A DNA stretch of 64,000 nucleotides. Origin: Rhabditoides inermis (lineage: Eukaryota; Nematoda; Chromadorea; Rhabditida; Rhabditidae). Position 1 is the stretch's first letter, and each line of letters opens with the position of its first letter. Position numbers and translations under genes: made by a program. Location: assembly GCA_963966185.1 (NCBI GenBank), contig CAWZYM010000117.1, positions 47,501-111,500 of the forward strand. The letters are read 5' to 3'. Shown piece by piece: positions 23,285 through 60,284 of the stretch. Under the pieces are notes generated by a model. It was not told the DNA's origin and did no database searches. It worked only from the letters and a program-made list of their open reading frames with translations.

Positions 23285-23693
23285 GAAAAGGACATTCATT
23301 CTCTTTCGAAAAGTACACGAGTAAAGAGGAGTGGTTTGTTTTAATCTAATTCAACAAAAGCACATACATAAAATCTCTTCGCAGCTGACTAAAATTTCAA
23401 AATTAACCTGCTCTTTCTGATCGATGGAAGGGCAAATATAGTATGCACTATAATCGTGTCACACAATTTGTTGCAAGTTACTTGTTGGGATTAACAGTAT
23501 CCTGAATACCTGAACTCAACATGCTAACAAGAAAACAATAAGAGTTTTTAATCATCGAAAGATCGAAAGAGCAGGTTTGTTTTGAAATTTTAGTCAGCTG
23601 CGAAGAGATTTTATGGATGTGCTTTTGTTGAATTATAGATCAAAACAAACCACTCCACTTTACTCGTGTACTTTTCGAAAGAGAATCCATACA
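23285..23693. mobile_element. Foldback element with about 130-bp arms
   Basis: The left arm (about 23300-23425) and right arm (about 23555-23690) are inverted copies: CTTTCGAAAAGTACACGAGTA at the left pairs with TACTCGTGTACTTTTCGAAAG at the right, and GCAGCTGACTAAAATTTCAAAA pairs with its complement. The loop of about 130 bp has no gene. Confidence 0.75.
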
Positions 23694-24001: not shown

Positions 24002-27000
24002 ATGACTCGTCTCGAGTGGCGGTGAGTTCATTTTCTCTCCTCGTCTTTTATTTTCCGGTCTGTTCACACTGTCCTTTCATTCTGTTATCGCGGTGATATC
24101 GTTCATCTCAGTGCTTCTAGGCTGTTGCTGCTTCTACTGATGTGTCGCTCCAGTCTCGGCGGCACCCGGACAAAGGCGTTCAGTGAGTGTTGTTCTACTA
24201 ATTTGTATAGGTGATTTGAAATTTGCATTCGACGCCAATTCCACGATTGGGCATTCCCCCGTCCATTTTGCCGGATTTTCACCAGACATCTTTTGATGCA
24301 ACGAACACTTTTAGGATATTTGGGTACTAGAAGCTATGCGTTCGCACATATAGGGGTTTTACAGTCATTTTTTTTTAACAGTCAAGGTAGTAACAGTCAT
24401 TTTTGTCAAAAATGCAAATTATGCTAATTAAGAGACCATGACCTCAAATAGGTCAATTTTTGTTAATATTAGAAAATAAGTGCTCGTTCGATTACTCATA
24501 AGATTTTAAAACATATTTTATAAAACATGATTTTCATGAAAGTCGTGTTGAAAGAAAATATGACATACTGCAAAATGAATGAACATACTCTCACGGCACG
24601 GATAATTGCACAGCGCGCTTCACAGAGAGAGAGCGGCGCGCGCTTGCGGAGCGGTCAGTGCGAGCGCCACTGTCCACTGTGCAACTATCCGAACCGTGAC
24701 TCTGTCCTTTTCCGATGAAGATTCTTTTTTCTTAAAAATGGTAGTTTGTCTCGAGGTGGAACATCTCCAAAAATTCAAAAATATGCAAATTTTTCAATTT
24801 TCATGTCATAACTTCTTTCAACATGACTTCCATGAAAATCATGTTCATAAAAAGTGTTTTGGAATTTCATGAGGAATCGAACGAGCACATATTTTCTGAC
24901 TTTTAAGAAAATTGACATGTGTTAGGTCATGGTCCCTTAATTGGGTAATGAGGGTCATTTGCAAGTCAAATGAAACAGAGTTCTTTAGTCACTTTTGAAG
25001 ATAATTACTCTCATATGTGGAATACAACATGTATTTCTAGAATGTTCCAACTACAAATCGAACGTGCGTGCAGTGGTTGATCTTGGGAAGAGTGCGGAGT
25101 GGCAGGATAGGCTAGTGGCAGCGGCGGCAGACTGGCTCGCCCCCAACACTGTCCAACCGCCATCGGAACCAACACTTAGAGGAGTGATCGAGGTATGTTT
25201 TGCATTCCTTCCCGAGTTATTTGCTCAAGTGAAGTGTTGCAAAGAATTCACTAAGCTAGACAAACATATTTTCAGCACTTGTTTGGTATCAACAATGCCA
25301 CGTCGTTTGACGTCTTGATTCGAGAAATTGAAGAAAAGACTCCGGTTAGATAGTCGCATTTTGTAAAAAGTATACAAGATATATTTAGATGTCATTTGTA
25401 CCCTCTATATTAATCGGTTTCCTGTCGCTTGCTAGCTTTATCGCTGTACTTTGCTACATTCTATACACCACAAAGAGAAAGGCAGCTGAAAAGGTTGGTG
25501 TATCAACGTTTTAACTCTTAATTCATATTTCAAGACGTTGAAAACGGTTTCATGCTCTTCGAAGTCAGTTTCCATTCCTTTACTGACAAAGGATCATTCG
25601 CTTCAAATATTTCTCTTGAAGGTACATGAATTGCTCAAAAAAGTTGGGAAGCCCAGAAAGGGTTTTGTTTTTATTTCGTCCAATTTCGGTCAAAATCGAA
25701 AGCCGTTCGAATAGCCACCACTGTTGTGGTTAAGTAACTGTTCTGTTTCAGATATCGATTGCTATTGTATCGATTTTCACTCTGGCGTGTATCATTCTAT
25801 CGATTGTGTATGTCAGTGCTTTCTTCCACACTCACAACAAAATATCCAAGAATTTTCCCAACGACCTAAACACTCAGCTCAAAAGTTTGTGAAGTACTAT
25901 TAAGTTCAAACGATTGATAGTGTATTTAGACATTTATAATGAAATGTTCGAGTTCATGTGTACTATTCGTGAGTCCATTGAGAATCCAAAGGAAAACAAG
26001 ATATCAGCACTCAATAGTGTTTTTGGCAAACAGGTATTTTAAAGCAACAGTGGCGACCTATTTTCGACTCGGAGTATTATTAAAAATCATATTATCCTAA
26101 CACATTTGCAGTTTTTGCGAAAGAACGACGATTCTGCGTTATTTTCGATTCTGCCACTGCCAAGAATGCAGCTCAAAATTTGAAAAAATTTCCCGCCAAC
26201 GCTTCACTGCAAAAACTGGGGTCGGAGACATAACCACAAATAAACAACGCCCGGTCACTTGCTTCTTTGCTCAGTGCATGTGCGCTGCGTTGTGACCCCC
26301 GATTTTTGCGGGTTCGATTCCGGTCACCGCCAAATGTTTTGCTCGTGTGAAAATGAGGAGTTGTGGCAGGTTGTGGCAGAAACAACTCGCCACTGTTCCT
26401 TTAATGTGTATTTTTTTTCCTATTCATTACATGTTTTTACTGTTTATTTACAGTTGAAAGAAATAAACGCAACCGTTTTGAGCAAAAGTCAACCAATTGA
26501 TATCACGGTAATTTTAAGCATTATTAATTATTTTACTTGCTATTCAAGAACGCTCTGATTGATCATTTTACTAAAGTGGATATGACGAGTATTGATACGG
26601 GTTTTCATGCAACAAAGGTTGATTTTATATTATTTTTCGTTCAACTTAAATTTATTTCAGAGGGAATTCGAAATTCTAGCTTTACCTGATGTCGTCAAAG
26701 CAGCTGAGAAAACTCGCGAATTTTTCAAAACAAAATTCGAAATATACTTTCATCATGCACAAAAGGATACGGTATAATCATGGGCAGAATTATAAACATA
26801 TGTTTGCAGACAAGTGTTAATAACATACATAACATCCTCAATAACAACGCTGTTACATACTCTAAGGAACTGTTCAAAATCAAATTTTATCGAGCTCCGA
26901 ATTTGTTTTCCAAAACGGTAAACAGTGGATTTTGGTTTTAATTTTTTCTGACATCAGATCCACAATGAATTAAATATATTCGATAAAGAAAAGAAGAAAA

Positions 27001-30000
27001 TGAGTAAACATGCATCGGAGGTATCTACTACTTACGTATTGATCGTTTTACGGTTTTCTTTCAGTACATCACTACAAATGAAGTTGCCATTCGAATGTTG
27101 TTCTTTTTCAAAGTGTTGATAGGTGTTTCTTCTATATTGATTATATCATTCTACTTTGCTCCGAGTGAGTTATCCATTAACTTGAATGTTAACGAATTCA
27201 TTTTTCAGTTAAGCCCCAGATCATTTTGATTGGATCCGGCATCTTATTTATCTTGATTCTCATTCCAGTAGTTTACATGCCGTATGTTTTGAACTTCTCA
27301 TTTCGATTATCTTTTAACATTTATTGATTACAGAAGTGTTTCAAAATTTGCTGATGTGAGACAAACCAGCTGCAATTATTTTGTTGAAAACGAACAGAGT
27401 GTTTGGAAGCTTGCTGGAAATATGAACGATACATTCTTACATAGAAATGCACTGTGAGTATTTAACATGCTCTACACATGCATGCTGAGCGTTCAGAGAT
27501 ATGGGGAAGTGCTACAAGGAGAATGGTCACATTTTCTTTGAAAGCTATACAGATCGCACTTTACAAGGTTCTGATTACTTTCACTACTACTGTGATAACT
27601 AATGAAATATTTGTCATAGGTATTTTCGACGAACTGTCAACAACACGTGAAGTTATTCAAACGTTGTCCTCTAATCACACGTCAGCTATTCTTGAAAGAC
27701 TTATGGTACACTTTGTTATCAGTTATTTTGAAAACGTTGTTTTTTTCAGCTTCTGCAAAACAAATACTTCGAGTTTGATCAAAAAGTGAACGATACTCTG
27801 AAAAGTTGTTCTGGAGTCGTTTCAAAAGCGTTGGAATGTTTCGAAGACGAAAAATACGACAAAAATTGGGGACGTGATTTTCTCAGGACGGCCGTTGAAA
27901 ACTTTCTGGTCGGGAAAATATTCTTGTTCAGAAATATCCAAAAGAGTTTATTTCACAGGCAGATTGGAACTGTGACACTGACAATCAGAAATGCAAGAAT
28001 TTAACAGCATTTGTTGATCTCAGCAATCATTTGAAACACAGAATTGAAGACCCTGGAGTCTACGAAATGTTCTCTGTTATAGAAAACACTACAACAGCTA
28101 TAAAAGTAAATCATTTTTGATGCTTCATCTTTATTCTATTCATTTTCAGACAACATTAATGAAGGCTCTACCAAAGGATTGTCAAATGAATGTGATTTAT
28201 ACAAACATCGTAGCCCGAGCTTGCAATCAGGTCAAACCATACTACTTGATTGTCAATACACTGTGTGAGTAGAGACACCTACTATTTATTTACTACTCAT
28301 AAGAAGACTTAATTTAGACATATACATGGCATGTCTATTTCTGTTCGGAATTATATCTTTCCTGATTGGTCGTCTTCGATTTCTCGATCCTGTACGAATC
28401 AAGTTAAAAGGACTGAAGGTAGTAGCATTTTCATAATGTAAAGTACAAACGTTTATATTCTCAGCGTGAGCTCAACATTGAAAATCAGATGAAATTCGGA
28501 AATAGTATTGGCATATCTTTGGTATGTTGGCATATCTTTGGTATGAAAATCGATTACAATTGTTCAGGATTGTGTTGGTAATGATCCAAGGAAAATATAT
28601 AAAGACTTCATGAGGCGAACATTGCCACAACAATCGATAGAGAGAACTTCAAACAGCAAAATGTCGCAATCAAAACAGAGCGGAGTCAACGAATCGAAAG
28701 AATCGAGCGAAACAACCATGGTTGATTTGGGATGGCCGGCAGATCACAACTACTTTGATGGAAACTGGGTGGTTCCGTTTGGGCATGCTCACAAGTGAGA
28801 GTTCTGACACTGAACGAAGTTGAATGCTGTTTAGATATATTGTAACCGCTGCTCCGACCGCAGACACCGCCGTTGACTTCTGGCATGTGGTCTTCCGATA
28901 CAACTGCAAGGCTATCGTCATGCTATGCGACTTTGTGGAGAACGAGAACGGAAAGTCGGTCGAAAAATGCGTCGAGTATTGGAATGAACAAACGCATCGA
29001 GTGTTCGAGAACCAGTTTGCAAAATATACGGTATGCTTGAAACAATTATTGGTTTATACATTGTTGCGATTCAGATCAAATGCAAGTCAAAGAACAAGGC
29101 TGCTGTCAAGAATCTGAAACACATGGTTTTCACTGTGTCCAAGTATGTTCGCGTGTTATAACGAGAAATGGTATATGTGGTGTTTAGTGGGTACGTGAAG
29201 AAAGAGGTCCAACTGCTGCAATACACTGGCTGGCAAGACTGCCTCGCGCCTGGAAACCCGGAAGAATTGGCGCAAGTGATGAGGATGCTATACGAGAACA
29301 TTGGAAACACGGACGAGCCAGTGGTCGTCCACTGCGCTGACGGACTCGGAAGGAGCGCAGCTTTCGTCGGTGATTTAAAACTCGCAATTGATGTATACGC
29401 TTAACTTACTTAAGGCATGGATGTCCTCATGAGCATCGTTGATTCGGATTCTAATCCTGAGCCGTTCGATCTCATTCAGGTTGGTTGATCTCATACCGTT
29501 TCTATGACCTTTTTTGTTAAGACGATGCGTTCTTTCCGAGCCAACAGCTACACTGACAAGTGGCAGTACTACTTCACATACATCTGCTTCTTCCAATTTC
29601 ACATCATGGTAATACTCGTAAACTCGTATTGTCTTTCTCAAAAACGTGTTTGCCCTTTAGAATCTCACATATGGCGAGTCTTCGAAAATCTACGCTTACC
29701 TGAATGATCGCAAGGCTTCGTTTGTCGAGAAAATAAAGGCAGTGCCTGTTGCGGAAGACTATACTGGACTTAGGAAGAGAAGGTTAGAATTGGCAGAAAA
29801 CTACGTGGATTTCCAAACAACCGTTCTGGCTATGGACAAAAAGAAAAAGAAGGAATCTTCATCGCAAAAGGACAGAGTATGTTCATTTATTTCGCAGTTT
29901 ACAGTTTGACTGAAATGCGTTAAGAAACTAACTGGATCGTATCTCAAAGGTTGCAATGATGAATATCTACTGGGCAAGCCTCTGGGAGCAGGAACCTATG

Positions 30001-31427
30001 GAGAAGTCTATCAAGCGACCAAGAAAAAACAAGAATCGAAAGAAAACACAGAAACTGGTCTATCGAAAAACAAGGGAATCAAAGAAGTTTACGCGATCAA
30101 GACTGAAAAACGCGGAGTTTCCGCTGCACTTATTGTAAGTTAATCCTCAGCAGTTGAAAGTATCGATTTCGTTTAGTCTGAAATATTCGTTCTCATGGAT
30201 GTCTCAGCGAATGCTCTCGAAAACAGAAACCAAATTGTTCAGTACGTGGATAAGGGTATATTGTAATTGTATTTCACCTGTCTCATTGAAAACTTTTCAG
30301 GTCACACACCGAGCTTCCATTTCTTGGTCATGAGTCTCGTCGGAAAATCACTTACCACTGTACAACAGCATGTGCGCCAGAAACTAAAGTGACTATTGAA
30401 AACAACCCTACTCCCTACTCCCTACTCATATTTCAGCACTTTCTCTGCTATGTATCTCTCTATCCAATCATTCAATGCAGTCCACCAGTTGCACCGATGT
30501 GGATTTATTCATAGGTCAAGTTAAGACTATTTAGTTTTTCAATTATATTTTTAAGGGACATCAAACCCGGGAACTTTGCGATCGGTGGGAAGAAAAATGA
30601 GAAAATGGTGTACATTTTCGACTTTGGAATGGCTTGGCGAAGCGTTGATAATCTGGGGAAAGTCAATGTTCGCAAGGGAAGAGAACACGGTTTCATCGGA
30701 ACACTTAGGTAGGAGAATCTTTTTGAAAAATAATGGGTTTTTTTGTTGAGATATGCTCCACGCGCTGCTCATGAAATGAGAAAACAGCATCCCAGTGACG
30801 ACCTCGAATCCTGGCTCTTCATGAGCATCGAGGTGTCTTAACCGGTTATCATTTGTCGCGCAAATCTATATTCAGATGTTCCAAAAGCTGCCGTGGAAAG
30901 GAAACGTGGACAAAGAATTTGTATTGCGAGAAAAATGCAATATGATGGAGGGAAAATGTAGGATCTCGCATCAATGACGTCATCAGCCTTTTGGATTGCA
31001 GACATGACGTCACTGCAGTACAGAGGTCTACCTGTCGCGATGCTACACGTCATCAAGTATTGTTTTATATGACGGATTATTCTTTTACTGATTCTAGGCA
31101 TATCTATTATTCTAGGCATATCTATGACATGAACCCCCACGATGTTCCTGACTACCGAGCAATAATGCATATCATGATGGGCGCAGAGTGCGATCTCATT
31201 GTGACTACCACATTCGTATCCTCGTCTGATAACATGTTTTCCAGCGGGATCTCGACTGGATCAACTCGGTGAAAATCCATGATAGGGCACAGTACGAGGT
31301 AGGATTCAGGCCCCTTATAAAAACAGGTAGCATGTATTATCGTACTTTTTAGTCGCTCGCTACCCGTGCGACCTCGAGGGACAAGAAGGCGATTCTCGCC
31401 AGTTTCAAGCCCCTCAGTCGCCTATAA
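24002..31427 (+). CDS. Prominin-like five-pass protein fused to a tyrosine phosphatase and a CK1-type kinase
   Basis: Forty exons join without a break in frame to about 1390 residues. Exons 1-2 (24002-24021, 24121-24182) give a signal peptide (MTRLEWRLLLLLLMCR). TM1 is residues 104-128 (25389-25493), TM2 137-161 (25752-25884), TM3 about 360-383 (27065-27164), TM4 385-404 (27209-27281) and TM5 646-666 (28318-28418). Two large Cys/N-glycosylation-bearing loops lie between TM2-3 and TM4-5, the prominin layout, which puts the C-terminus in the cytosol. A PTP domain follows (about 750-975; YIVTAAPT, DFWHVVF, WQD at 876-878, HCADGLGR at 909-916). A CK1/TTBK-like kinase fills 1057-1370: LGAGTYGEVY, Lys1103, HRDIKPGN at 1195-1202, DFG at 1218-1220. 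TAA at 31425. The gene could be two overlapping transcripts, but exons 22-30 stay open and in phase across both joins. A possible 38-nt intron (27894-27931) is the least secure junction. Confidence 0.83.
24426..24941. mobile_element. Foldback MITE in intron 2 of the fusion gene
   Basis: About 516 bp with long inverted ends: AATTAAGAGACCATGACCT at the left and AGGTCATGGTCCCTTAATT at the right, and pairing continuing inward for about 140 bp (GTGCTCGTTCGATT with AATCGAACGAGCAC). A second, inner inverted pair (CGGATAATTGCACAG and CTGTGCAACTATCCG) flanks a GC-rich core. A fragment of repeat family B abuts its right end. Confidence 0.75.
26039..26404 (+). mobile_element. TTAA-ended MITE with tRNA-like segment, copy 2, in fusion-gene intron 7
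   Basis: Matches 18404-18756 from TTAAAGCAACAGTGGCGACC to GGCGAGT-complementary right end CGCCACTGTTCCTTTAA. The tRNA-like block (about 26258-26335) keeps GGTTCGATTCC. It sits sense-oriented in the intron between exons ending at 26033 and starting at 26454. Confidence 0.78.
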
Positions 31428-31850
31428 CTCCACTACTAACACTTATCTTATAACTTAAAATACTCACCATAGCGTTGTTATAACTTATATTCACTTGTCT
31501 GTATCAAACTACAAAGCCCATTTACATTTTAGTGAAAACCCTAAACAAACGAGGTTAAGAATAAATGGTTGAAAATAAACGATTCGTGAAGAGCCGTTAA
31601 AGGAAAAAGAGTAGTAACAGAGAGTAGTAACAGAAGCAGCGAGAATTTCCGGGATCACTTTTTCAACAGCTGTTTTTGAATCGTCAGATGCCTAATTGAG
31701 TTTATAAAACTTTGACGTGTATTCACTTATATTGTTATTCGTTGTCGTAGTATTTATCAATATCAGAATCAGAAAATGTTACTTGTGGTCAAGTTTCGAT
31801 CATTGTGAAATATCCATGCGCCACAGAAAGCGAAGAGATTCCTCCGAGTG
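31428..31850. other. Gap between fusion gene and PTP relic
   Basis: AT-rich 3' flank with AATAAA at about 31560 and again near 31575, candidate polyadenylation signals of the fusion gene. A GAGTAGTAACAGA duplication lies at 31607-31633. No exon was recognised. Confidence 0.45.
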
Positions 31851-31852
31851 TT

Positions 31853-32011
31853 TCATCGTCTATGTAACACAATTCGCAGTACCCCCTCCCTCGAACACAC
31901 TGTGGCCGACTTCTGGCGAATGGTGTTTGAGAGCACTGCGCCGTCGATCGTCTTTTTTCTGCAACGACAACGACGGTAAGTAGTGAGAAGAAGAGAGAAC
32001 GGGAAGGCAAG

Positions 32012-32056
<45 letters not shown>

Positions 32057-33034
32057 GAGAGAGAGCGAGAGAGAGATGGGAGAGATATACCCGTCATTTC
32101 AGCATTCGGCGAGGTTTGGCCGCGTACTGTGGGCGGGTTCGCCAACTACGGAGAGATGTTCGTCCAAAACAAGAGAAAGGAAACGCTGGACAGATACGAC
32201 AAGCTGGCCATCGAGGTGCTGCCGTCCGGACGCTCGAACGCCAAGCTGACTTCGGTATAGTCACTTCATTTAATTTATATTATCAAATCTCACCATAACC
32301 ATTACCACCCGCCGCACCTACACAATCTCGATCATTCCTACATAAATTATACATCACTCTACTCTACTCTACTGTAACTTGCAGGTATTTCGGATGACTT
32401 CGTGGGCAGCGGGTGGCGCGCCTCCATCTCCTCTCCGTCTCCTCCGCTTGCTGCGCGACGCCAAGACAGCTGACGTCACGAAGCCGATGGGGCAGGTACG
32501 GGGGTACGGTAGCGTACTGTAGCCGCCGACAATGGAGGTGATTCTGGTGTAGGGCGCTGGAGTGGGAAGGGCGGGGAGGCGGGGACCAAGCTGCTCATCG
32601 ACCGCATCATCTCCAGCCTCTTTAAAAAAAGCAATTGCGTCCCGCCTTCGACCCATCTAGCCCTCGAGGTTCCAGGCGACAACCGTGAACACGGAGAAGC
32701 AGCTGAATTACCTGCGCGAGCAGAGGGCCGGCGTCGTCGAGAGCGCCGAGCAGTACGTGTTCGCGCACGCCACGGCACTCGATTACATCAAGGTAGGGAG
32801 TGTTCAGAGGCGATTCGAAAATGAATTTTGGAGGCAATTCGGTAGTATTGTATTGTGAAGAGACTGACCGCAACTGCAGCCCCCGCCCCCCCAAACCCCG
32901 CCCACTCACCGATGCAGACAACGGTCCATCAGCTGTGCAGCGTCGCTGAGACACGGGACACCACCGCCTACAGAAAAATGTGTTCCTGTGGCGTTAAATT
33001 CCCGAACAAAGTCATTAAAATTGTATTTTTATAA
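31853..33034 (+). pseudogene. Decayed nematode-type protein tyrosine phosphatase
   Basis: PTP exon remnants in order: 31880-31978 (TVADFWRMVFE), 32103-32254 (YGEMFVQNKRKETL ... EVLPSGRSNAKL), 32385-32495 (MTSWAAGGAPPSPLRLL), about 32553-32663 (GAGVGRAG, then LLIDRIISSLF in another frame), 32676-32792 (REQRAGVVESAEQYVFAH) and 32918-33034. The WPD loop reads WAAG, without its acid. The HCxxxxxR loop is broken: ILV, a stop, then GAGVGR, with no Cys. A 5-nt GC-rich duplication shifts frame after GVGRAG, and the C-rich run at about 31882 also shifts frame. Three later exons remain open with good splice sites. It is probably a tandem paralogue of a phosphatase that has died; a catalytically dead adaptor protein is the alternative. 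It lies 430 bp downstream of the PTP-kinase fusion. Confidence 0.65.
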
Positions 33035-34724: not shown

Positions 34725-37700
34725 TGCTCCCTCTCCGTGCAGTGCTTGTCCATCTCGGCCCACGCGGCTCCGTCCATCGAGATGCAGTCCCGATCCGCGC
34801 CGAACATGCTCAGCAGCTGATACCTGCAGGATTTGATCCCAATATGTACGTATGTACAGTCCTCAACACAAACAATGTTCACTCTAGCCGAACCCGATTC
34901 GCGGCTCCCTCCCTGTGAGAGACTCGTCCGACCAATGCACCAGAACACCCATACTCTACAATACGAACCAATCAATACGTACAATTTTCGATACAATTTA
35001 CGAACCCAATAGTCCCGCTGTACACGATTTCGCGTTAGCAGCCTTACCCATTTTTCACGATTCGCTTTCTTTTCCTGCTGCCCAATCTACTCTTCGTAGC
35101 TGTTCTTCTTTGATCAAGGTTGTTTTCCGTCTTGTCTCGATCAACATACGTGGAATTATGTTACATGGAATTACGAATTATGTTAGAGCTCGGTGAACAA
35201 ATTGTTGAACGTGATAAAGCGATTATCTCGAGAAAAGAGAAACTGTTTTGCGACTTGTGAACCAATACATCCCCCAACGCCAACATTAGAAAATCACTAT
35301 CAGTTCCTGCGATCCACTAAAATCAATGACTTACCACAGTGTGCGGAACTCAAAACTATCCAAAACAATTTAAATATGCAATGATACAACAAATTTATCT
35401 ACATGAAATATTGAAATGTTGTAACCGTTTTTAACATACAACAACATCTTTTCTTCTCGCATCGCCATTTTCAGCACTTCATTTTCAGTAACACATTCCA
35501 CCTGCCACAATGGTATACTATTGATAAAGAAAAAAGACTCACCTTACTGTCATTGTATCGCATCCACCTGTCATCGTCAAACCGATACGTGATGTAATGC
35601 CCTGAAATACAACAAATGAACATCGTTTCAACCCTTGAAGTAATCACCGTTATCACCATTTTTTTATATATCGAACCACAGCTTTCAGACTATAAGTTTC
35701 ATATTGAAACTGTTTCACATTCAAAGCAGGCGTCCACTGCTTCTTCAAGGAATCGAATGACAGTAGGAGCGTGCCTAAGGTGATATACGACTCAGGTTGC
35801 GTGAATGCACTGGCCACTCAAATCGCATTCATTCACTCACCGACACCTTCATCCATTCCCTTAGGTTCTGTCCACATCCAAATGTCTTCTCTCTGAACAC
35901 CCACAATAAGATCGATACTTTTTTTTTGGAAAATTTCATCCCACCTCCATGAAGAAAAGGAGTCGAATATTAAAACAATTTGAAATCAAAACCGTCTGGG
36001 CAGGCCAAGGAAAGTCCTTCAATTGTTTATATCTAAAAAATTTTTTTGATAATTTAACAGTAAAAACAAAAAATGGAATTTACCTATTGACAATTTTTGG
36101 TGGAAACAAAGTCATGTTCTGTTTCTGACTTAAAAACGCAGACGCCTGAATCATAACAATACGTGATTTTAAACATAGGATCTAAGTATTAAATCGTACC
36201 AATTTATACAGTTTCTTACACAGGGATTCGCTTCCAACTAGAAGCATGGAGAGCGAACTGAATGTATCCAGCGTGTGAAACAATAGCAAGCGAAATCTTA
36301 CCGGAACAACGACATGTCTTCCAGACGTGATGCTCCACGCCAAACCACGTAGCACAGGAGCGCCGCTGTACACAATCAAACACACATGTAAACAAATAGA
36401 AGCGATACCTACCCGTTCTTTTTAGGGAAGCGTTCGGCCCAGAACGTGAAACAATCCGCGGGCGGAGAGTGGAAGACGACACCGGCGAGAGACCGAGCCC
36501 TCGCCGGAGAGCTGCCCGCGGCCATCCGACCATCTCCAGATAGGCCAAACCCATCCGCCAAGTTGCCCGCTTCGTCCTCCACCATCACGTCATCGCGGAT
36601 GCTGAAAATCAGAACAACCCATAAACAACAGTTCCACCACTACTTACGTTTGCTCCACAATCTCCATCTGCTCGTCTTCCTCCTCTCCCTCTCTCTTCCC
36701 GCGCCCCCTTTCCTTCTCCTTCACGTCATCGTTGATGCTGAAATTTAGAATACATAAACAACAGTTCCACCACTACTTACGTGAGCTCCACCTCTTCCTC
36801 TTCTTTCTTTCTTTTTTCGAGCGCTCTATTCTCATGCATCTTGCGCTTTTTGTACACCCTCTTCCTCTGTCTCCTCCGTTCAAGACTATCCGGGTACGTC
36901 GGATCTCTCTTTTCCTCACGGTCCTGTCAACACCGAATAGTAAGAAACCCTACTAACTGAAGAAAACGATGAACCAATGACGTACCCGCTTTCTCTTCTG
37001 GCAACCACCGTTTTCTTTCTTCACCGCATCTTCCACTTCATCTTGCAATAGGAGACACAACTTCTGAGAAACGAAAGAAAGTACAAAGCTGATCTGTGGA
37101 GGAAACAACCTTATTAAGCTTGATAGACGCTCGCACTCCGTGACGCGGAGTGTGGTAAACAAGATATCTGAATTTCCTAATGTATCAGATAGACAAAAGT
37201 GGGTCTTACTGTGGTGCTGTGAGAGAAATTGTTCTCATTGACCAACTGCACGTATCCCTTCCACACATAAAACAAAACGATTAGAGAGTATATCGAGGAC
37301 ATGATTAGAGATATGCGTACCTCGGACACTTGAGAGTGCGCAACGTATTGTTCATTTTGATTGAACTGTGTAAAGCAACGAGGTGAAAGTCTTTGTCCTC
37401 TTTCAATATAAAAACAGAAGAATAAGTTGTTGACCATTCAATCTTCACATATTCATTTTCCGTGGAGCAAAAAAAAACTGAAAATACGAAATAGTGAAAA
37501 AGGTCTAAAGTGAATAAAAGTTTCACTAACATCTCTCTTCGGGTCCACGAAAAAAGATCCATGCCGTCGAAACATTTGTTGTTCAAAACTAGATTGAGAA
37601 GATCGTAAACATCCTAGAAACCATTTTGAAATAATGCTATGTCTAGAACACCAAACACTTACTTGCGGCTCGAAATCTTGAAACAATGGGGATTGAATAC

Positions 37701-39009
37701 CCAACTCAATTTTCGAATTCATATAAACATTAGTATCAAAAACTTTCGTCTTCATTTGCTTTACAACGGAAACCAGAGACCTGGAAAATGTGTATAAAAC
37801 TACATAATATAAAGGTGAAAACACTTTGCAAAGTCAAGCGGGAATCGATGCATACACGGAACTCCCTTCGAGATCTGTGTGTCTAGGCATGCAATACACG
37901 TAGGAACGACGCACAAAAATTGCAGAAACGCGTTCCAATAGCAATCATTGCCGCTGTTCAGCAGCCTTTAAATAACAATTTCATTCACGAAACATTGTGT
38001 ATACACAAACCCTCCACCACGAATCGGCCAGTTGTCTTTCATTCTTCTTTCAACTACAGTTGAGAACCGCTTGACAACTGCCTTTTCCCACTCAGAGCTG
38101 CGCACAGAAACATTCACATCTCTCAATGCATACAAGTAATGCGCACCTTGAGGGACGGCTGGAGACGTAGTTCTCGAGATCGCACTCGCGGAGACCGGAG
38201 ACCAGCGCCACCACGTCGTCATCGTCCTCGTCTGGCACAGTGACCACCATCTTGCCGTCACTCCCGCCGCGGTCCCCACCACACGATTGCCGGTCGTCAC
38301 TGAAAGAGAGGAATGGTGAGAATGAGAGAGGGAGAGAGGGAGAGAGGAAGAGAGGGAGAGAGGCAGAGAGGCAGAGAGGCAGAGAGGCAGAGAGGCAGAG
38401 AGGCAGAGAGGCAGAGAGGAACAGAGGGAGAGAATGAGAGAGGGAGAGAGGGAGAGAGGGAGAGAGGGAGAGAGGGAGAGAGGGAGAGATAGAGAGAGAG
38501 AGAGGGAGAGAGGAAAAGAGGAAGAGAGGGAGAGAGGGAGAGAGGGGGAGAGAAGGAGAGGGGAGAGAAGGAAAGAGGGAGAGAGGGAGAGAGGGAGAGA
38601 GGGAGAGAGGGACAGAGGGACAAAGGGAGAGAGGGAGAGAAAGAGAGAGGGAGAGAGGGAGAGAGGGAGAGAGGAAGAGAGGGAGAAAGAGAGAGATAGA
38701 GAGAGAGAAAAAAAGGGGGAGAGAAGGAGAGAAGGAGAGAAGGAGAGAAGGAGAGAGGAAGAGAAGAAGAGAGGGAGAGAGGGAGTGAAGGAGAGAGGGA
38801 GAGAGAGAGGGGGGAGAGGGGGAGAGAAGGAGAGAAGGAGAGAAGGAGAGAAGGAGAGAGGGAGAGAAGGAGAGAGGGAGAGAAGGAGAGAGGAAGAGAA
38901 GGAGAGAGAAAGAGAAGGAGAGAGGGAGAGAAGGAGAGAGGAAAAGAGGGAGAGAGGAAGAGAGGAAGAGAGGGAGCGAGGGAGAGAGGCAGAGAGGAAG
39001 AGAGGAAGA

Positions 39010-56895: not shown

Positions 56896-58958
56896 ATGTC
56901 AAGTAAACGAAGCTCGGATAGGTTAAACAAGAAAAATTAAACAAGAAAGAAAGATTCAAGAAAGATTCACAAGAAAGATTCACAAGAAAGATTTTAAACA
57001 AGAAAGATTCACAATGTTTCATTTCTGCTTATATTTCAGGGTACCCTCAAACAAAGGACGCCCGCGTGTGTCTTATAAAGGATACAAATACGAGTGCATA
57101 ACCAGCAAGATGCGGGAGCACTTATATTTCAAGTGTGCAACTCGGTCGTGTAGAGTGGGATTCAAAATCGAAAAAGATAAGTTATCCCAATTCGGTGCGT
57201 CGTCATCCAACTTCTGCCAATGGACTTCGAGTTCGACCGAGCATTGTCACATAAGTTCTCTTCTCTCGGACAAGGTACAGTAACAGCAGAATATCTAATT
57301 CAATTTTATATAATTCAACATGTCACTGTCACTTCTGTTTCAGGTGCAAGCAGCAAGAAGCATATTGAAGAAGAAGCGAAGGGAAGGACTGTCCCCTACG
57401 AAGGCACTGCAAGCGTATAAATCGGCACTCGGAGCTGACATGGCCCTTTTCGGAGGACAGCCCTACGCAGTATACAAAGCGTGAGTACTCCGTTACTTTA
57501 CTCTCTTATTGTTGTGTTCAGTACTCAGCGTGCGGTACGTTTGTCCGACAGGGAGGCGATTAACATGAACAAGGGTATCATCAATGCCAACTCCTATCGT
57601 TTGAACGGTTGGTTATCAACAAATGCAAAAAAAAGTTGTTATACACAATGTATGTTTCAGGAGAACGGACTATTGTGTGGAGCGGTTGGCATCTCGAGGA
57701 AGACCTAGCCGTCAAGTTTGTCATGGTAGCGACCACTGAAGGACTACAGCGACTTGCCCGAGCGATTGTGGTGTTTGCGGACGGCAGCTATAGGAGCAGA
57801 CCGAAAGGATCTCAGCAGACCTACAGGATTGGCACCGGAGTGAGTGTACAATAAACAACTAGTTATGTGTTTTAACTTCAGGGAACTGATGAGCGCTACA
57901 GGGACTGCGCGCTGATCGTCTCAGCTTCCCACTCGGAGGCGTTCTACGCTGCTGTGTTCTCTCTTCTGAAGGTATCAGTTGTTGTATAACATGATATTAC
58001 TATAATATTGTAGTTCATGATTGGCGAGGAATGGATGGGTCCAAAGTTTCTCACTGTGGACCTGGAAATTGCCGCTGGGAATGCTGCTCGACGGGTCTTC
58101 CCGAATATCCAGATCTCTTTCTGCTCATTTCACCTAACACAGGCAATCCGGTGCCAGTTCATCAAGAAAATCGGTGTAGTTTTTTTTCTCATTTTTTGTA
58201 TCCAGTTCGTATTTCAGAAAAGAAGCTTCCGGGTGATTTCGATGGACATGAAGCAGTGGAGGCGTACTGGACCGGATGCGTCGGTCTCATCTACATGCCC
58301 GTGACAGAGATTCATGCTGCTTATCGAGAGCTCTACACTGCTGTCTCCATACATCAAACTTCCGTCGAAGGTTTGTTGGGAAATTGTAAATATCTGTTTA
58401 GTTTACTATTTCAGAGTTCCATGTATATTTCGTCAAGTACTTTCTGGGTTCTCCCGATGTCGCACTGTTCCCCCGATTCCATCCTGCTCAATGGAATAAA
58501 CACGAATCACTCATCTCGGGACGCGCGCTGACCAACAACTGCTTGGAAGGCAGGAATGCTTCTTTGATCGTGAGTTATTTTCTCATATAATAGTGACGTG
58601 TGATTACTCAGGGACAGTATGGAATCAGACCGTACATGTCGTCGTTCATGTCCAATGCGTACGACGAATTGAGCAGGTATGCAGTTGACATTGCGCACGA
58701 GGAGGCGAATCCAGCATGGAAAGCTCCAGCGAAGGTAAGTGTTTATCGATTTGCTGTGCTCAGTGTTTCATTGATTTGCTTACAGCGCCGAGGTGTGCAA
58801 GCAGATGGCCGCGTGAAAGGTGAACTGAGCAAGTCGTACCCAACGGAGACGCTTAGGCAGAAAGCGATCCGTATAGGAATTGCAGCTCGGGTACGAAATG
58901 TGTTTGAGTGATGCATTTTTCACGTACATAATTTCAGCGTTCCGCTGCTGCGAAATGA
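56896..58958 (+). CDS. FLYWCH zinc finger plus MULE-type transposase domain protein
   Basis: Twelve exons (56896-56921, 57040-57274, 57344-57480, 57522-57607, 57661-57839, 57882-57971, 58014-58173, 58218-58370, 58415-58569, 58612-58734, 58786-58890, 58938-58958) give 489 residues, all in frame. Residues about 12-80 form a FLYWCH-type finger: GRPRVSYKGYKYEC, a C...C pair, then HCH. Residues about 170-400 match the MULE (Mutator-like) DDE transposase: VVFADGSYRSRPKGSQQTY with the first Asp, FLTVDLEIAAGNA with the second, then FCSFHLTQAI (C..H). A basic C-terminal tail ends RSAAAK. It has short GT-AG introns and no stop or frameshift. No flanking inverted repeats were found, so it may be a domesticated host gene or a young element whose ends I missed. 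Confidence 0.78.
56922..57039. repeat. AAGAAAGATTCAC tandem units in intron 1
   Basis: Four imperfect copies of a 13-17-bp AAGAAAGATTCAC unit make up most of intron 1 of the FLYWCH/MULE gene (about 56940-57010). Confidence 0.75.
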
Positions 58959-59020
58959 TTCCATACAAGGCAATGAATGGACGAGTGGGAGAGGAGGAGG
59001 CAGAGAGAGAGAGGAGCTAG

Positions 59021-59436
59021 GTGAGTATTGATTAGTGTTCGCCAATGATAGAATATTGTTGTGTTTGTTTATCTAAATTGTTATGTGTACGTTTCATGTT
59101 GCAGGAGAATGCATGTGTGTGTGTGTGGCGACGGAAGCGAGTGGCAGGCTGATCGCTTCCAGCACGATGTCGCAAGAGACGGCCAAAGGAGAGTGGGAGA
59201 GGAGGAGGCAGGGAGACAGAGGAGCTAGGTGAGTATTGATTAGTGTTCGCCAATGATAGAATATTGTTGTGTTTGTTTATCTAAATTGTTATGTGTACGT
59301 TTCATGTTGCAGGAGAATGCATGTGTGTGTGTGTGTGGCGACGGAAGCGAGTGGCAGGCTGTTCGCTTCCAGCACGATGTCGCAAGCGACGGCCAAAGGA
59401 TTGTGGGAGAGGAGGAGGCAGGGGAGAGAAGACCAA
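59021..59436. repeat. 208-bp tandem duplication that looks like an intron plus exon edges
   Basis: Two head-to-tail copies, 59021 and 59229. Each begins GTGAGTATTGATTAGTG (a good splice donor after GGAGCTAG) and carries an acceptor TTCATGTTGCAG before GGAGAATGCATGTG. A third partial flank lies upstream at 58981-59020. A (TG)n-like ACATGTGTGTGTGTG tract differs in length between copies. The repeat lies just after the FLYWCH/MULE stop, so it may be a duplicated last intron/3' UTR exon. Confidence 0.75.
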
Positions 59437-60284
59437 GAGGAGCCACCATATTGTAGGTTTCAGATTATGAAATATAGTTTAGAAAAATATATATTTAATT
59501 ATGTTATACTTCAATAGTTTGCATACAATTGTTATAGTTTTATAGATTGTTATATTGAATGTTGTATATTTATATGTTGTGATTTGCCCCAAAGATAAAT
59601 GTTAAAAATATGATTTGTGAATGATTGAGAACGGTTTTACTGTTTTGTCAAATGGAATTGATTGTTCAGATATCATTCCTAGTATTTACCAGACATAATT
59701 TGAGACATCTATCGCCTGTTTGCGAATCGCCTCCGTGCAAGTTCATGTGCGTTAGGCTGCTTTTAAAGGAAATGCGGGTGGAAATGAGAATGAAGTATTG
59801 ATTTTATACAAATTTTAACTGCCTGCCAACTTTTTTCAACTGAAGTAGATTTCATAAAGAAAAATTCAATCAAAGTACCATATATCATGAGGCGAAAAAA
59901 AGATCTTTTACCGACAATTTTACTAATCCGAAATTCTTTCGTTTGCTCAATTCATGCGAATAGTCATACGAAACGCGATCAGAGAGTACCGTGTTCAAAT
60001 CTTAAAGTCATGCAAAATGTCAGAACACGTGAGTGCAGCGGTCATGCAATATCATCTCATGCAAACTGTCGCTCGTGCATTTGCTATCTCATACAAACTG
60101 TCTATGGGGGGATTTTCATGGTGCTATTTCATTTTATATCACATTTATATTAAATAGTAGAATTTTTGTTTTGGTTTCAATTTGATCGCCATATCGATAT
60201 TAACTATGTCGACTTCATGTGATTATTCCGCACACCTCTCCTTTAATATTTTTGGTTAAACAAAAAAATATATGCGTACGCGCT
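59437..60284. other. AT-rich intergenic DNA
   Basis: No exon recognised. Contains repeated CATGCAA(A/T)(A/C)TGTC boxes at 60011, 60044 and 60058 similar to the ATTTTGCATGAG motif near 55700. Confidence 0.4.

Follow-up and report, generated by a model that had tools for sequence, protein, structure and literature searches.

A predicted nematode gene for a pentaspan protein with a tyrosine phosphatase and a CK1/TTBK-like kinase in its tail

A 64,000-nucleotide stretch of the Rhabditoides inermis genome (the window; contig CAWZYM010000117.1, C117:47501-111500) carries at 24002..31427, on the forward strand, what is very probably one gene for a single-chain five-pass receptor, with a signal peptide, two large outer loops and a cytosolic tail made of a protein tyrosine phosphatase (PTP) domain and then a CK1/TTBK-like kinase, and belonging to a large family. 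We favour one gene because the membrane-PTP-CK1 order recurs, and the linkers between modules are conserved, in relatives within the same genome; a first-pass annotation had proposed such a single gene, and the recurring order and conserved linkers bear it out. That annotation also knew of no described protein joining the three modules, and a literature search, with subscription papers and genome databases outside its scope, found none. The gene and its relatives look like a family of two-enzyme receptors not yet described, and genome databases may already hold automatic annotation for it.

Gene model and catalytic modules

The hand-built model of 24002..31427 has 41 exons in one frame, encoding 1411 residues with the sole stop at the end; 35 of its 40 introns measure 38-59 bp. 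Residue numbers throughout are those of this first model. The paralogs place the start of exon 3 at 25041, not 25074, giving 1422 residues, and from paralog DNA read by eye the exon 2 acceptor is probably 24121 rather than 24112, with three residues fewer, so that the corrected protein has about 1,420 residues. A candidate exon at 24211-24323 was dropped for its stops in the continuing frame. Exon 3 has a match, 47-73% identical, in seven to eight of the nine paralog loci that were assembled. Upstream of paralogs C342A, C338A and a second C176 copy lie counterparts of exons 1 and 2, each single match being weak (E 0.005 to 1.8). Splice sites were scored leave-one-out against GT and AG sites outside the model. 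The introns that join modules (22, 23 and 30) scored well, their donors being matched or beaten by 1.3-4.1% of non-model sites and their acceptors by 1.6-5.3%. Donors at 27567, 27893, 30514 and 31200, in loop 2 and the kinase, are weak, as is the 5' end. The parts of the gene, with transmembrane helices abbreviated TM, are as follows.

24002..24021, forward: exon 1 with the start codon (MTRLEWR), matched by DNA 5' of C342A (E 0.06) and of the second C176 copy (E 0.005)
24121..24182, forward: exon 2, hydrophobic core of the predicted signal peptide; start favoured by paralogs (24112 in the first model)
25041..25192, forward: exon 3, N-terminal extracellular segment, from paralog matches
25407..25463, forward: TM1, residues 100-118, from hydropathy
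25752..25808, forward: TM2, residues 158-176, from hydropathy
25809..27094, forward: exons of extracellular loop 1, residues 177-381, from the gene model and paralog alignment
27095..27276, forward: TM3 (residues 382-400) and TM4 (residues 409-427), from hydropathy
27277..28260, forward: exons of extracellular loop 2, residues 428-664, with eight Cys, five N-glycosylation sequons and the least certain splice sites
28261..28370, forward: TM5, residues 665-683, split by an intron, from hydropathy
28465..28708, forward: juxtamembrane linker (exon 23 and the 5' part of exon 24), residues 700-765, joining TM5 in frame to the PTP and conserved in paralogs
28709..29590, forward: PTP domain, residues 766-987, with WQD at 897-899 and HCADGLGR at 930-937 (29330-29353)
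29661..29876, forward: exon 30, end of the PTP and linker 2, residues 994-1065, with the last in-frame ATG before the kinase (M1051)
29970..31143, forward: CK1/TTBK-like kinase, Pfam stretch at residues 1081-1350, with GAGTYG at 1086, YAIK at 1121, HRDIKPGN at 1216 and DFG at 1239
31353..31427, forward: last exon and stop codon; terminal residues SLATRATSRDKKAILASFKPLSR common to paralog C104A
31560..31579, forward: two AATAAA polyadenylation signals (31560, 31574) 3' of the stop, read from the sequence

The PTP domain scored far above chance against Pfam Y_phosphatase (PF00102; E 1.2e-48, 166.3 bits against a cut-off of 20.9), which places it among the classical PTPs, and its best PDB relatives are receptor PTPs. 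The catalytic HCX5R motif reads HCADGLGR and the general-acid Asp is retained in WQD; in all seven aligned members WQD and HC[AT]DGLGRSA are present. The kinase matches Pfam Pkinase (E 9.8e-16, 58.4 bits against a cut-off of 31.7), has TTBK1 as its best PDB match (E 2.5e-28) and contains the Gly loop, Lys, HRD and DFG of the CK1/TTBK signature, TTBK and CK1 being its closest relatives. DIKPGN and DFG were found in 7/7 aligned members and the HRD exon in every one of the seven loci reaching that region. The first-pass annotation had thus read correctly a set of some 40 exons assembling in one frame, with a signal peptide, five hydrophobic helices, a PTP with HCADGLGR and a full CK1/TTBK-like kinase. 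The catalytic motifs of both domains are intact in the window protein, and both enzymes would be expected to be active.

One gene or two neighbours

The genome (172.6 Mb in 599 contigs) was searched with the modules, yielding at least 112 matches to the membrane half, at least 225 to the kinase half and at least 166 to PF00102. The window's own copy excluded, the membrane-half matches form 40 clusters (41 if two on C151 are left unmerged), and in 33 of the 40 a PTP and then a CK1 follow downstream on the same strand among the matches listed. By its sequence, the window gene is a member of a large paralogous family with at least 33 other loci of the same order. Two clusters outside the 33, C338 and the second C176 copy, nevertheless have a PTP in the fetched DNA. 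DNA was fetched for 30 membrane-half loci, three of which are the window's own copy; TM5 was seen in 18 of the other 27 (17 places), and the conserved linker and PTP follow it in 16 of the 17. Each of the seven assembled loci that reach the CK1 (C103A, C104A, C151A, C176A, C187A, C338A and C342A) gave one predicted gene across both junctions, the C103A prediction being cut upstream, inside the membrane part, in one of two gene-prediction runs. C104A is 68% identical to the window protein over residues 33-1411. No relatives were found in prokaryote genomes or viral contigs.

The modules of six paralogs, each compared with the window protein, differ in how well they are kept. Identity is 74-84% in the PTP and 59-86% in the CK1 domain, 56-82% in the juxtamembrane linker and 53-73% in linker 2, whereas the outer loops (34-62%) lie below the enzymes (59-86%); TM3-TM4 stands at 26-57%. 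The family is variable outside, with a constant two-enzyme inside. Ratios of nonsynonymous to synonymous substitution (dN/dS) were taken from six pairs and are rough, several dS values exceeding 1, and loop 2 of C103A/C104A is undefined: 0.08-0.33 for the juxtamembrane linker, 0.08-0.37 for linker 2, 0.13-0.22 for the PTP, 0.11-0.23 for CK1 and 0.26-0.46 for the membrane part, with all defined values below 0.5. Judged by these values, the linkers joining the modules are conserved coding sequence under selection, and they therefore argue against transcripts that end before exon 23 or start at exons 22-30.

Within the window, there is no in-frame ATG from exon 31 to the Gly loop or catalytic Lys, the next Met being 1142, so the kinase cannot start alone after exon 30. 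The PTP-CK1 junction is the firmer of the two because the sole close in-frame ATG, M1051, sits in the exon that ends the PTP. For the other junction, the gene model and the conserved paralog linker together put the transmembrane part and the PTP on one predicted chain. A home-made gene finder, run with five training sets, preferred one gene over a TM5/PTP split by 14.3, 11.5, 8.8, 7.5 and 0.0 nats; its start and stop penalties were set by the author, and it is therefore just moderately decisive. When both junctions were shuffled, the total score fell in 80/80 runs for each.

In our estimate it is very unlikely that the locus instead holds two neighbours, a membrane gene that ends soon after TM5 (read-through of intron 22 would meet a stop at 28434-28436) and a PTP-CK1 gene of its own whose start codon is M733, M750 or M769; several observations nonetheless weigh on the side of two genes, or against our reading in other ways. 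At codon 747, close to where a separate PTP could start, the G+C content at third codon positions shifts from 0.387 to 0.553 (log ratio 18.1, the highest of 300 permutations being 11.1), and exon 24 has three in-frame ATGs. The finder's preference in nats is about the size of the author-set penalties, and it joins modules easily, the shuffled junctions still being joined in 59/80 and 80/80 runs. With 28425-28658 shuffled the real score was reached in 4/200 runs, and in 200/200 under the kinase-only training set, which is blind to the membrane half and puts the PTP start at 28661. An AATAAA lies inside exon 30, at 29732. Among the clusters, five of the 40 are without the full set (C312+, whose CK1 match falls just past the distance limit, C578, C313, C79- at 114296 and C317), and C313 is also the exception among the 17 places, with no PTP in the DNA seen and a C-terminal CK1 piece. 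The one-gene reading is, moreover, a prediction from genome sequence. Against two genes stand residues 700-765: the stretch is conserved as protein in six paralogs, lies between TM5 and the PTP in 16/17 places and shows the low dN/dS given above, and no AATAAA occurs between 26462 and 29732. A pseudogene or assembly artefact, to which the several weak splice donors and the incomplete copy at C313 could point, is scarcely credible given the open frame, the undamaged motifs, the many independent copies and dN/dS values that, wherever defined, stay under 0.5.

Further observations concern the family itself. C313:12633-17114 (reverse strand) carries the membrane part and the CK1 end, with no PTP in the DNA seen. 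At C355, C283, C346 and C21, a PTP and a CK1 lie near each other on one strand with no membrane match among the matches listed; these may be PTP-CK1 fusions whose membrane parts are of another kind or have diverged further. Between C103A and C104A, dS is 0.03 in the membrane part and 0.13-0.23 in the PTP, linker 2 and CK1, an unevenness that suggests gene conversion or exchange between the two copies.

The membrane half and its likeness to prominin

Topology was derived from hydropathy, loop charge and sequons, a simple method rather than a trained predictor. It gives five passes with the N-terminus outside and two large extracellular loops of 205 and 237 residues, the TM3-TM4 loop having just 8. 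The TM1-TM2 loop is positive (8 K/R against 2 D/E), as is the segment after TM5 (11 against 5), and all seven sequons before residue 720 fall in predicted outer segments. Because the inner segments are rich in K/R and the sequons all lie in outer ones, the PTP and kinase tail should be cytosolic, and loop charge and sequon placement thereby support the earlier assignment of both enzymes to that side.

The first-pass annotation had further described the helices as a prominin arrangement. The five-pass topology bore this out; membership of the prominin family was not supported. Neither the window protein (E up to 1 or 10) nor three paralogs (E up to 10) matched Pfam prominin (PF05478), although human PROM1 scored 1028 bits in the same library. 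An exon-level search of the whole genome found no prominin. A profile of eight members compared with two human prominins reached a probability of 1.4 over 28 columns at TM2; a reversed control gave 0.4, and prominin compared with Tweety 35.7. Alignment over the whole length of TM1-TM5 to human PROM1 gave a z of 4.3, reached by 0/60 shuffles, which also destroy the helix pattern, while the loops alone gave at most 1.5. Beyond topology, prominin membership found no Pfam, genome, loop-alignment or profile support. A PDB search with the membrane half returned nothing relevant. We class the membrane half as an orphan family of pentaspan proteins, like prominin in topology only.

Two further readings keep the single gene and change the role of one module. 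In one, the membrane half would be a genuine prominin, much diverged, that shapes membrane protrusions or vesicles and carries the two enzymes to them. The five helices, the two large loops, the signal peptide, the eight Cys in loop 2 and the TM1-TM5 alignment would suit this, and prominin homologues exist in C. elegans and Drosophila according to PMC11776279. The absent PF05478 match, the loop, profile and genome results above and the TM3-TM4 loop of 8 residues make it unlikely all the same. Somewhat less unlikely, yet still doubtful, is a PTP whose main part is to bind phosphotyrosine, or to work as a weak phosphatase, with the kinase as the output. Two features count here against a fully working pair of enzymes: the Pfam PTP match begins at profile position 14, leaving the KNRY motif unmatched, and WQD replaces WPD. 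Removing the insert after DPRKIYKDF gained 0.9 bits and did not extend the match toward KNRY; the conserved DPRK[VIA]YK[DNE]F stretch at residues 724-732, which the C342A model lacks, may take its place. Against a weak PTP, all seven aligned members retain the catalytic Cys and Arg, the WQD Asp and the Q-loop Gln, and dN/dS in the domain is low.

Possible function, known systems and genomic surroundings

Returning to the proposed receptor with two active enzymes, we put forward, tentatively and as a plausible rather than probable model, that nematodes have a large family of such receptors, which couple diverse pentaspan ectodomains to a near-constant eraser and writer tail acting in cis. The variable outer loops would sense different ligands, and the near-constant tail would strip phosphotyrosine from, and add Ser/Thr phosphate to, shared substrates close to the membrane. 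The PTP might clear an inhibitory or priming phosphotyrosine on a substrate or on a partner tail, and the adjoining kinase would then phosphorylate that target on Ser/Thr. A fixed tail under a more variable outside would suit receptors in which many ectodomains feed one output.

In animals, the removal of phosphate from tyrosine and the addition of phosphate to Ser/Thr are usually tasks of separate proteins. If the model is right, a variable multi-pass receptor fused to both enzymes would represent a novel arrangement for signalling, with testable cis cross-talk. It might also help to explain the large PTP and CK1 families of nematodes, many of the PTP and CK1 matches in this genome lying together in such fusions. 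Copies and outer loops that turn over rapidly would be in keeping with gamete recognition or with some other arms race.

Known receptor-type PTPs are single-pass. The best PDB matches (CD45, PTPRE, PTPRS and PTPRA) resemble the window protein in carrying a cytosolic classical PTP behind a membrane part; the window protein differs in its five passes, its one PTP domain with WQD and an unmatched KNRY, and the kinase that follows. Known TTBK/CK1 enzymes are soluble kinases, whereas the window kinase, like them in its TTBK1 match, HRDIKP and DFG, would sit behind a PTP, tethered to the membrane. Prominin (PF05478) and Tweety (PF04906) are likewise five-pass with two large outer loops, but no sequence or profile similarity to them was detected and, to our knowledge, neither has cytosolic enzymes.

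By analogy, sperm may be the likeliest site of action. PMC9635660 lists PTPs and TTBK/CK1 kinases among the NHR-23-regulated spermatogenesis genes of C. elegans, naming F47B3.2, F55H12.5, ZK596.2, W03G9.5 and ttbk-5 as sperm-linked PTP and CK1/TTBK genes. These are the same two enzyme families, given there as separate genes, and their co-listing recommends sperm as the tissue to examine first.

Two other genes are predicted in the window.

35370-38042, reverse: ubiquitin carboxyl-terminal hydrolase (PF00443, 2.6e-8)
57220-59698, forward: MULE-type transposase (PF10551, 5.4e-7)

Rfam and tRNA scans of the window returned nothing. Pieces of a second PTP, GC-rich, lie just downstream of the gene at 31850-32800 (forward strand), with a Pfam E-value of 9.1e-24 on the hand-joined pieces; the frame seems to change around the active site, and they may be a decayed copy. 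Long inverted repeats occur before the gene (23298-23686) and in intron 2 (24426-24942), with arms of 51-99 nt that are 80-96% complementary, and resemble small inverted-repeat transposons.

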